A DNA stretch of 48,265 nucleotides from Nitrospinales bacterium (lineage in GTDB: Bacteria > Nitrospinota_A > UBA7883 > JACRGQ01), in the NCBI GenBank assembly GCA_023248535.1, contig JAHFEJ010000005.1, forward strand, positions 19,456-67,720. Reading direction: 5' to 3'. The notes beneath the pieces were generated by a model. That model was not told where the DNA came from, made no database searches, and saw only the letters and a program-made list of their open reading frames with translations. Position 1 is the stretch's first letter. The number at the start of each line of letters is the position of its first letter. A program made the position numbers and the translations under genes. Shown in pieces: positions 45,770-48,265 of the stretch.

Positions 45770-46048
45770 CTATTTGTTCCAGCCCTTCGCTCCGTGGCGT
45801 CCCCTCTCCAGCCGGTGCATCGGTGTGTGCTTCTGGCAGGGACGGGGAGCCATCATGAACATGTGGTGCTGTCCCATCATCATGCCCGGCATAAACGGCC
45901 GCATCGCGGGGGGCATCCGCATACTCTTCATCCCCGGCATTCCCATCTCGCGCATCATGAACGGGGATGTCATGGCATCGCCCATAGATTCGCGCGCCAC
46001 GGCCAAAGAGCCTTTCGAGGCTGTTTTAATCGACTCCCAGATATTCAT
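45770..46048 (-). CDS. Methionine-rich small protein
   Basis: A 92-residue protein with 19 Met (about 21%), concentrated in residues 22-66 (MREMGMPGMKSMRMPPAM, then MPGMMMGQHHMFMM), plus several His and one Cys. ATG 46048 has the extended ribosome site AGGTGATC six bases upstream, the same type as the two microprotein genes nearby. A TATAAT is present on the minus strand at 46133-46128. No signal peptide or TM is seen. Met/His clusters suggest Cu(I)/Ag(I) binding, but no family is recognised and the frame could be spurious. Confidence 0.5.
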   Translation of the reverse strand: MNIWESIKTASKGSLAVARESMGDAMTSPFMMREMGMPGMKSMRMPPAMRPFMPGMMMGQHHMFMMAPRPCQKHTPMHRLERGRHGAKGWNK

Positions 46049-46237
46049 CAATCAGATCACCTGCCTTTCCGATAACTCGTTCAGGCCGTTGAGGGGAGGA
46101 TGATCCGTCCACCCCTTTCCTGACTACATTATACTCCGCGCGGGCACCGGCAATGGTTTAAATGAGCGGAGAAAAATACGTTAAAAAAGGGCGTATCGTT
46201 GTAATGAGATAAATAAGGTAGACTTTGTGCGAAAATG

Positions 46238-46246
46238 TGGTATTAT
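46238..46246 (+). promoter_or_regulatory. Extended -10 promoter of microprotein gene 1
   Basis: TGGTATTAT fits the extended -10 form TGnTAtaaT; TAGACT at 46219-46224 may be a weak -35. The same kind of element precedes the second copy. Confidence 0.55.
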
Positions 46247-46279
46247 GTACTCAGAGAAAAAGAAAGAAGGTGATGAGTT

Positions 46280-46420
46280 ATGAGGCACCTCACTTACATG
46301 AATGATCTCATTTGCTACGGCACGCACTGCGAAACGAAAGGAAACGTCGTTTCCTACATCTGGCTGGGCGCCTTCGCCGCTCTTTTCGCGCTCCCCATCG
46401 TTTTCTATGCCCTGCTCTAA
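46280..46420 (+). CDS. Microprotein copy 1 (46 aa, Cys-x4-Cys, single TM)
   Basis: Begins MRHLTYMNDLI, then the core CYGTHCETKGNVVSY (residues 12-26) and a C-terminal TM segment of about 20 residues (WLGAFAALFALPIVFYALL). The ribosome site AAGAAGGTGAT precedes ATG 46280. It is 31/46 identical to copy 2. In the 15-codon core all 8 codon differences between the copies are synonymous, which shows selection on the protein. Cys12 and Cys17 could bind a metal or cofactor or form a disulfide near the membrane. No known family is recognised. Confidence 0.85.
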   Translation: MRHLTYMNDLICYGTHCETKGNVVSYIWLGAFAALFALPIVFYALL

Positions 46421-46429
46421 GAAAGATTT

Positions 46430-46472
46430 GCGGGCAGGGCGGAAACTGTAGCAGGGTTTCCGTCCTGTCCGC
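46430..46472 (+). terminator. Hairpin after microprotein gene 1
   Basis: Arms 46430-46446 and 46456-46472 pair over 17 bp with two G-T wobbles and a 9-base loop, starting 10 bases after the stop. Only a weak T-containing tail follows. A hairpin with the same GGAAAC/GTTTCC heart follows copy 2. Confidence 0.65.
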
Positions 46473-46503
46473 TTCTCCCCCCACCGCATAAATCGTCTCT
46501 GCG

Positions 46504-46512
46504 TGATATAAT
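46504..46512 (+). promoter_or_regulatory. Extended -10 promoter of microprotein gene 2
   Basis: TGATATAAT is a perfect extended -10 (TGnTATAAT); no -35 is evident, as is usual for this promoter class. It lies about 34 bases before ATG 46546. Confidence 0.65.
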
Positions 46513-46545
46513 ATTATCCAGGTAAAAGGAAAGAGGTGATCAGTT

Positions 46546-46686
46546 ATGCAACACCTTACTTACCGCGACAACATGGTCTGCTATGGCACACACTGCGAGA
46601 CCAAGGGCAACGTCGTTTCATATGTCTGGATGATCGGATTACTGGCTCTTTTCGCGCTCCCGATCCTGTTCATGGCGCTCATGTGA
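46546..46686 (+). CDS. Microprotein copy 2 (46 aa, Cys-x4-Cys, single TM)
   Basis: A tandem paralogue of the gene at 46280: begins MQHLTYRDNMV, then the identical CYGTHCETKGNVVSY core and a TM tail (WMIGLLALFALPILFMALM). The ribosome site AAAGAGGTGATC is a near-full complement to the 16S 3' end, which implies strong translation. The whole cassette (promoter, ribosome site, frame, hairpin) is duplicated. Changes in the TM part are conservative hydrophobic swaps. Confidence 0.86.
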   Translation: MQHLTYRDNMVCYGTHCETKGNVVSYVWMIGLLALFALPILFMALM

Positions 46687-46702
46687 TCTGCATCCCGCGT
46701 GT

Positions 46703-46733
46703 GGGGCGAAAACCCCGATAGGGTTTCCGCCCC
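46703..46733 (+). terminator. Hairpin after microprotein gene 2
   Basis: GGGGCGAAAACCC (46703-46715) pairs with GGGTTTCCGCCCC (46721-46733) at 12 of 13 positions around a 5-base loop, 16 bases after the stop. It is followed by GCGTGCATCTTT, not a strong T-run. Confidence 0.62.
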
Positions 46734-46790
46734 GCGTGCATCTTTCCACTGTATCAATTCCCCCAACATACCAACCTTTCATGGGCAAAA

Positions 46791-46934
46791 ATGGTGAGAC
46801 CACGCATTTGGCCAGATAGAGGCAACGATGGTACGATTAAAATCGGAGAAATGGTAGAGTGGCAATATAAAAGCGATCGCGATGCTGGGCTTCAACCGCC
46901 GCACTCCTGCGAATGTGGCAAAAATTCTCCCTAG
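46791..46934 (+). CDS. Possible small protein (47 aa)
   Basis: A frame starting MVRPRIWPDRGNDGTIKIGE and ending HSCECGKNSP, with a CxC pair near the C-terminus. There is no good ribosome site and no recognised family. It lies in the roughly 300-base space between microprotein 2 and the next hypothetical gene, in the same direction. It may be real or a chance frame. Confidence 0.3.
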   Translation: MVRPRIWPDRGNDGTIKIGEMVEWQYKSDRDAGLQPPHSCECGKNSP

Positions 46935-46982
46935 AGTGAAGGATGTAGGTGCTGCGCAACAGAAATAAAATATGGGGGCAAA

Positions 46983-47288
46983 ATGAGGTTGTCAGCTGAA
47001 GAAGAGGCTCGAAGGAAAGCAGACGTACTTGGTTTTTTGCATGAGAATGTATTCGACCCAATATTAAATTCACCCAATGCTTCTTCAGAGTTGAAACAAG
47101 GTGTCCGGCTTACCATCATGAGGATGAAGGAAAGGGACTCCGCCGGCATTGTTTCATATTACTGGTCGGCAATTGTTGGAACGGAAAAAAGTGAAAAGTT
47201 TGCGCGACAAATGCGGCAAGAAGGGTTTACCCGATTTGAAGAAATTATTGATGATTTTCGTGATCGTTTCAGCAGGTGGTCCAGTTAG
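46983..47288 (+). CDS. Hypothetical helical protein (101 aa)
   Basis: ATG 46983 follows GGGGG at 5 bases. A soluble, mostly helical, charged protein (EEEARRKADVLGFLHENVFDPIL; LTIMRMKERDSAGIVSYYWSAIVGTEKS; FEEIIDDFRDRF). No signal, TM or known domain is recognised. The base composition is lower in GC than the core genes, which fits the accessory character of this end of the window. Confidence 0.65.
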   Translation: MRLSAEEEARRKADVLGFLHENVFDPILNSPNASSELKQGVRLTIMRMKERDSAGIVSYYWSAIVGTEKSEKFARQMRQEGFTRFEEIIDDFRDRFSRWSS

Positions 47289-47385: not shown

Positions 47386-47799
47386 TCAAGGATGCGTTTC
47401 CTTCGGCAGCCGACCCAGCACCGCTTTATACACGTTGTCGGCGATATGTATTGCTTCATCAGCTTCACTTACCGGCGGCACTTCCATTTCACCGGGATAC
47501 CGGTATTTCCATGCATACTCCGTAAGGCCGGCCGCGTTTTTGAGCAACGGCTCAAGGGTGCCGTCTATCGTTGCGCACAGCTCGCCAACTTCAATAAGAT
47601 TATGCGTTTTTCGGAAAGGCACGTCGTGCCAGCAAAGGAACGCCTTCAGGCTTTTTTCCACAAGTTGCTGTGCATGAAAGACAATATCCTCGGTTATCGG
47701 CGGTTTTGCCGTACGGTCGTGTTTCGCGGCGCGTAAATCGACGGTGGCTTTTGCCAGCCACGCCTTGACATCGGCCACGCGGGCCGGATCATGCGGCAT
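47386..47799 (-). CDS. HEPN domain protein (toxin-like partner of MNT)
   Basis: A 137-residue HEPN-domain (PF05168-like) protein: helical ADVKAWLAKATVDLRAA, HAQQLVEKSLKAFLCWHDVPFRKTHNLIEVG and the late EYAWKYRYPGE segment. In MNT/HEPN modules this partner acts as an RNase-type toxin or RNA-binding subunit. The canonical Rx4-6H catalytic motif is not obvious here (RKTH is present), so activity is uncertain. The start overlaps the end of the upstream MNT gene by 11 bases. Confidence 0.85.
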   Translation of the reverse strand: MPHDPARVADVKAWLAKATVDLRAAKHDRTAKPPITEDIVFHAQQLVEKSLKAFLCWHDVPFRKTHNLIEVGELCATIDGTLEPLLKNAAGLTEYAWKYRYPGEMEVPPVSEADEAIHIADNVYKAVLGRLPKETHP

Positions 47800-48121
47800 A
47801 CAGCAGCTTGCCTTCCCGCTGTATGGCGCTGGGAAAAGAGGCTTTTAAATGCAGGCGCGAATCGAAGGACGACTTTGTCCAGACAAGCACATCCACCGCC
47901 GCGCCGATGCCCCATAAATTCTCATAGGCCAGCCGTGTTTTTTTCCTCTCCGGCGGGGCGTCATCCGGCACGATGATCATGAGGTCGTAATCGCTGTCCG
48001 CGCCAGCTTCGCCACGTGCAACGGAGCCAAACAGAAAAACCCTTTCGGGGCGGTAGAGTTCCACCAAACGGCGGACTATCTCATTCAGCACCGGATTGTT
48101 GATGGAATAAGCTGTTTCCAT
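47789..48121 (-). CDS. Minimal nucleotidyltransferase (MNT antitoxin, MntA-like)
   Basis: 110 residues from ATG 48121; longer frames add atypical sequence. The pol-beta-type signature GSVARGEAGADSDYDLMI fits GSx10DxD, and a third acidic site is in AVDVLVW. MNT proteins of this kind AMPylate the partner HEPN toxin (type VII toxin-antitoxin systems). The HEPN gene overlaps its 3' end, the standard order. There is no strong ribosome site. Confidence 0.88.
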   Translation of the reverse strand: METAYSINNPVLNEIVRRLVELYRPERVFLFGSVARGEAGADSDYDLMIIVPDDAPPERKKTRLAYENLWGIGAAVDVLVWTKSSFDSRLHLKASFPSAIQREGKLLYAA

Positions 48122-48215
48122 ACGATTTAATCTATCATAACCGGGTTCAATTACACGCTCCCAATGGAAAAGAGCGGTCTTTGCACGGGGGGCGGATTCT
48201 AGTATCCTTACGCGG

Positions 48216-48265
48216 ATGGAACAGCCGCAAAACCCCGCCTTCAACTACCGTTGGGCCGCCCCCGG
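48216..48265 (+). CDS. Possible start of a new gene (3' partial)
   Basis: ATG 48216 opens MEQPQNPAFNYRWAAP and runs off the window end. It is divergent from the MNT gene. Too short to identify, and no clear ribosome site. Confidence 0.3.
   Translation, partial: MEQPQNPAFNYRWAAP

Follow-up and report, generated by a model that had tools for sequence, protein, structure and literature searches.

A family of predicted small bitopic membrane proteins with an invariant C-x4-C pair in Nitrospinota

Tandem frames and their expression signals

The window, a stretch of 48,265 nucleotides from a Nitrospinales bacterium, contains two tandem frames of 46 amino acids, each starting with ATG and accompanied by its own candidate expression signals. 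The following features were found, in order of position.

46219-46224, forward strand: -35-like TAGACT of copy 1, weak, upstream of the extended -10
46238-46246, forward strand: extended -10 of copy 1, TGG TATTAT; TGn-TAnnAT aligned in 6/6 genus copies
46267-46273, forward strand: Shine-Dalgarno box of copy 1, AAGGTGA, 6 nt ahead of ATG
46280-46420, forward strand: microprotein copy 1, 46 aa, MRHLTYMNDLICYGTHCETKGNVVSYIWLGAFAALFALPIVFYALL; homologues in relatives
46430-46472, forward strand: 3' hairpin of copy 1, from folding; aligned within the genus
46504-46512, forward strand: extended -10 of copy 2, TGA TATAAT; aligned within the genus
46533-46539, forward strand: Shine-Dalgarno box of copy 2, GAGGTGA, 6 nt ahead of ATG
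46546-46686, forward strand: microprotein copy 2, 46 aa, MQHLTYRDNMVCYGTHCETKGNVVSYVWMIGLLALFALPILFMALM; homologues in relatives
46697-46739, forward strand: 3' hairpin of copy 2, from folding; aligned within the genus

The sequence-only reading of the window had described tandem frames of equal length with an invariant core and exclusively synonymous changes within it, and all of this was reproduced. The copies are identical at 31 of 46 residues, and the core CYGTHCETKGNVVSY is invariant. Codons 12-26 contain eight differences, all of them synonymous (Sd 8.0, Nd 0). In the DNA alignment of the two copies, the Shine-Dalgarno boxes, frames and 3' hairpins are similar, and the regions upstream of the -10 boxes are dissimilar. 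The assignment of an extended -10, a Shine-Dalgarno box and a 3' hairpin to each copy was confirmed as well, and these signals are conserved in the genus: TGn-TAnnAT, the GGTGA box and the ATG align in all six genus copies.

A 3' hairpin is present in every homologue. Its strength is variable, and a clear T-run follows only in some cases. The hairpins of the window are strong and have no clear T-run, and thus they are not textbook intrinsic terminators. A repeated terminator element was considered and rejected, as within the window strong hairpins with GTTTCCGYCCY are confined to the 3' sides of the two microgenes. A search of the window against Rfam produced no RNA family, and no tRNA was found either.

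The 5' leader is 25-30 nt long and has a good Shine-Dalgarno box. The latter is partly paired with the early coding region, where codons 3-4 contain a complementary CACCT. However, its accessibility is ordinary when compared with synonymous recodings, and as a regulatory feature sequestration of the box does not exceed expectation. The same comparison leaves the earlier description of the microprotein as highly translated unsupported.

At 47386-48244, on the reverse strand, the window encodes a HEPN-domain protein (PF05168) adjoining a nucleotidyltransferase-like frame, GSVARGEAGADSDYD; together they are a probable HEPN/MNT toxin-antitoxin pair.

Homologues, selection and genomic sites

A single-sequence search of relatives gave full-length copies in each of the genus's other three genomes: G001 and G003 have one apiece, and G002 has a tandem pair. 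Close relatives are present in two public MAG records (L032, L033), one of them Nitrospinales bacterium isolate nzgw267. Homologues in G004, G006 and G007, which represent three additional genera of the family, were also first seen in the single-sequence search. A profile was then built from nine sequences including these three, which it scores by construction; it identified a new homologue in another family of the class, in G012 (E 9e-8 prior to inclusion). With one exception considered below, the homologues outside the genus are intact and equally short (43-48 aa), with a good Shine-Dalgarno box in front of the start. The search for frame-keeping homologues thus found intact frames in the genus, in three more genera and in G012, and their occurrence in all four genus genomes and, more distantly, in other genera rules out chance.

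All intact homologues share one layout. Firstly, there are two cysteines exactly four residues apart, mostly in the form C-x-G-x-x-C. Secondly, a polar linker follows, so that the helix starts 6-11 residues after the second cysteine. Finally, the C-terminus is a transmembrane helix with ALPI or a similar motif. Both cysteines and P39-I40 are invariant in 10 of the 10 intact homologues (five genera, two families). The Cys pair, earlier placed next to the membrane, does lie N-terminal of the transmembrane helix, but the linker sets the second cysteine apart from it.

A sample of 361 genomes from other phyla yielded just five chance-level matches and no credible homologue, and viral, plasmid and phage collections yielded none at all. 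Searches of Pfam, NCBIfam, PHROGs and PDB gave no convincing match for any member, the best E-values being 0.008 (an NCBIfam histidine-kinase model, for two of the 11 members) and 0.025 (PHROG). By these searches, the family is not covered by existing models and is previously unmodelled. The genome sample has one genome per species and covers about half of GTDB species; the genomes of the phylum are MAGs, 73-100% complete, and thus single absences are weak evidence. Among the genomes sampled, the microprotein family is, as far as similarity searches can tell, one of a single bacterial family plus one other family of the same class.

Selection was analysed using the six genus copies from four genomes, in 15 pairwise comparisons. 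The pooled pN/pS is 0.23 for the whole frame, 0.31 for the N-terminal part, 0.38 for the transmembrane part and zero for core codons 12-26, where pS is 0.68 and no amino-acid change occurs in any of the 15 pairs; as the pairs are non-independent and synonymous sites are near saturation, these values are qualitative, but the pattern of a fixed core and looser flanks is clear. The synonymous-only core explains why selection was visible from two copies alone. The frames are coding, and the homologues, the core and the conserved promoter, Shine-Dalgarno box and hairpin all support the claim of a real family under purifying selection whose members have a membrane helix and an invariant C-x4-C.

The duplication is real in the genome of the window (G000) and in G002, with two copies each, whereas all other carriers have a single copy. 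Support in the gene tree is 27-72, copies a of G000 and G002 being split from the rest at 72. With such weak support, a duplication preceding the split of G000 and G002 cannot be separated from an older one followed by losses.

In the genus, the microgene lies beyond mnmA, on the reverse strand, and a divergent gene for a Met/His-rich protein of 92-93 aa. Outside the genus it is solitary, with a different site in each of the genomes compared and no shared neighbours. In G005, it is situated between relA and a SecA-like gene. In G010, from the genus of G005, and in G009, relA adjoins the SecA-like gene and the microgene is missing there; in G008, this interval is occupied by a different small gene. 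Such differing and empty sites mean that the microgene stands alone and was gained, lost or moved several times, and without a conserved neighbour outside the genus no partner is indicated.

The Met/His-rich gene (window 45770-46051, reverse strand; MNIWESIKTASKGSLAVAR...GMMMGQHHMFMM...HTPMHRLERGR) is kept in four of four genus genomes with pN/pS of 0.30-0.43. It has no Pfam match, and its product could bind metal. It was rejected as a general partner, since it was not found outside the genus. In G007, the microgene is flanked by genes for a ZIP-like protein that ends in a cupredoxin domain and a Fe/Mn superoxide dismutase (L063 3005-4090 and 4905-5480). These neighbours are suggestive of metal or oxygen stress, in one genome only.

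Scattered sites, empty in relatives, would also fit a type I toxin-like peptide, whose synthesis is held back by an RNA and harms the membrane when it occurs. Such membrane toxins, among them Hok, ZorO, Ibs and Ldr, are small, have one helix and are sometimes tandem; ZorO, whose ribosome-binding site is sequestered, was discovered by looking for small hydrophobic proteins in tandem duplicates (PMC8309996). The microprotein is similarly small, with one transmembrane helix and tandem copies in G000 and G002, and its Shine-Dalgarno box is able to pair with the CACCT of its own early codons. However, no sigma-70-like promoter, this being the type sought, was found on the minus strand in 46050-46990, and the good Shine-Dalgarno box on its short leader is partly paired, though not beyond the level of synonymous recodings. 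The strongest conservation is in the polar Cys core and not in the helix. Moreover, the membrane type I toxins described come from Proteobacteria and Firmicutes (PMC8309996). A toxin-like peptide is unlikely here, but together with the structural subunit considered below it is one of the two main alternatives to the reading that we favour.

An in-frame TGA at the first cysteine position

The homologue of G005 reads MYLTHDHYPV-TGA-FGHSCMSDESFLSIVIAMVVGILFALPILLALS, with an in-frame TGA exactly at the position of the first cysteine (L040 1519-1521, contig C122). This is the sole in-frame stop in any homologue. A TGA at a Cys position looks like an exchange of selenocysteine and cysteine, and therefore the selenocysteine machinery was searched for in the 11 genomes of the family f1 (G000-G010, G005 included). 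SelA was found in none of them. Candidates for SelB were only elongation-factor-type proteins below the cut-off. Typing covered the tRNA-Sec-like matches above the cut-off, which were tRNA-Ser, and the top match of G004, which was tRNA-Trp; G005 itself has matches below the cut-off. The whole family f1 seems to lack SelA, SelB and tRNA-Sec. Most other families of the class carry true tRNA-Sec, SelB and SelA. G012 has the machinery, yet its homologue uses cysteine.

If the family consisted of selenoproteins with selenocysteine mostly replaced by cysteine, the TGA of G005 would be a true selenocysteine codon, in agreement with its position and with the small hairpin right behind it, where a bacterial SECIS element would lie (z -2.3 for 37 nt). 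However, with longer stretches in the folding this hairpin becomes unremarkable (z -1.5 for 47 nt, -0.6 for 71 nt). The other species of this genus has no copy at all, which fits decay. Given also the machinery not found in f1 and the cysteine of G012, selenocysteine at this TGA was set aside as extremely unlikely. Decay by a third-position change from TGY to TGA is the simpler and likelier reading; an assembly error is also possible. One could further imagine a lineage-specific redox or metal sensor made of one 46-residue membrane protein, its reactive thiol replaced in one relative by a UGA-encoded residue despite the failure to find the known selenocysteine machinery in that relative, but this is highly improbable.

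Predicted structure and possible role

The AlphaFold2 model based on the family alignment has strands at residues 5-7, 10-13 and 16-19 and a helix at residues 20-45 (mean pLDDT 78.6, pTM 0.41), the hairpin being of moderate confidence. By the model, the two cysteines would be near each other across a turn, which would suit a disulfide or a metal site, and we infer that the pair may bind metal, haem or a redox partner, as the sequence-only reading had suggested, although neither a partner gene nor a known family was found. Every member has a hydrophobic 19-mer at its C-terminus (mean Kyte-Doolittle 1.8-3.0). With a size below about 60 aa and one transmembrane helix, these are predicted small bitopic membrane proteins. 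The N-terminal charge ranges from +3 to -3 across the homologues, only one of which has a charged C-tail. As the helix ends the protein and the N-terminal charge is variable, the topology is ambiguous.

Nothing significant was found by Foldseek. The top match, to pediocin PA-1 (E 5.4, probability 0.13), is at most an analogy. The N-terminal sheet of pediocin PA-1 also carries a C-x4-C disulfide, and in class IIa bacteriocins a Cx4C-bearing strand element at the N-terminus precedes a hydrophobic or helical part. However, it is very improbable that the microprotein is a secreted, leaderless peptide akin to bacteriocins, with a hairpin of the pediocin type. Neither sequence nor structure gives a significant match, Pfam included, and the YGNGV motif and leader that mark class IIa bacteriocins are absent from the family sequences. 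No immunity gene or exporter was seen among the neighbours, and the C-terminus is fully hydrophobic and of the transmembrane type.

We tentatively favour, at somewhat less than an even chance, a bitopic protein that assists or regulates a larger membrane protein, with the Cx4C hairpin acting as a redox or metal switch in a manner similar to MgrB. Each copy would be a stand-alone gene for such a protein. About 25 residues would form a short N-terminal domain, with beta strands modelled around Cys12 and Cys17, and a single transmembrane helix would then extend to the C-terminus. The helix may dock onto a larger membrane protein, such as a respiratory protein, a transporter or a sensor kinase. 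The C-x4-C hairpin might serve as a reversible disulfide or metal-binding switch tuning this partner; the side of the membrane that the cysteines would face we can likewise only infer. This interpretation draws on the fixed core, the invariant cysteines, the C-terminal helix, the modelled Cys hairpin, the own promoter, Shine-Dalgarno box and 3' hairpin, and the precedents of MgrB, CydX, CcoQ and CcoS. It is weakened by the lack of a conserved neighbour outside the genus, by distributions that do not track oxidases or hydrogenase, and by the ambiguous topology.

In MgrB, the two conserved periplasmic cysteines are essential, and a disulfide and redox sensing have been proposed (PMC10576120). 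The likeness to this enterobacterial PhoQ inhibitor is in the proposed regulation of a membrane partner by a Cys pair. MgrB has a cytosolic N-terminus, and its C28 and C39 are in the periplasmic C-terminal part, 10 residues apart. In contrast, the microprotein has its cysteines ahead of a C-terminal helix, with four residues between them, and it has no known partner. As no member matches Pfam or NCBIfam, there is no family model shared with MgrB, the comparison being via models only.

Another possibility is that the microprotein is permanently part of a membrane complex as a structural subunit, in which the Cys pair would staple the N-terminal hairpin by a disulfide or hold a fixed cofactor, with no switching. 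The invariant cysteines and core and the strong-looking own promoter and Shine-Dalgarno box are consistent with this. Small accessory subunits are common in respiratory complexes, CydX, CcoQ and CcoS being tiny proteins with a single transmembrane segment (PMC10903887). The microprotein is like them in size and in its one helix; however, it does not share an operon with an oxidase, has no match to Pfam or NCBIfam, and has an invariant Cys pair. It is not linked to the operon of any complex in any genome, and it does not co-occur with the three respiratory families tested, as within the phylum neither COX1 nor the bd-like oxidase nor NiFe hydrogenase follows the distribution of the microgene. 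A structural subunit is thus possible, if somewhat unlikely. A trace similar to that of the accessory protein or regulator that we favour could also be left by a disulfide with a purely structural role or by a peptide active on membranes.

Independently of the microgene, G010 has no haem-copper oxidase above the cut-off and no match to the bd-like oxidase, unlike its relatives; either the organism is anaerobic or the MAG is incomplete.

Small bitopic proteins with conserved cysteines are of a known kind, and in principle the family holds no surprise. The invariant Cys pair makes a functional test simple. An undescribed and clearly selected family is added to the poorly known set of small membrane proteins of uncultured Nitrospinota, and its stand-alone microgene is retained across much of a bacterial family at changing genomic sites.
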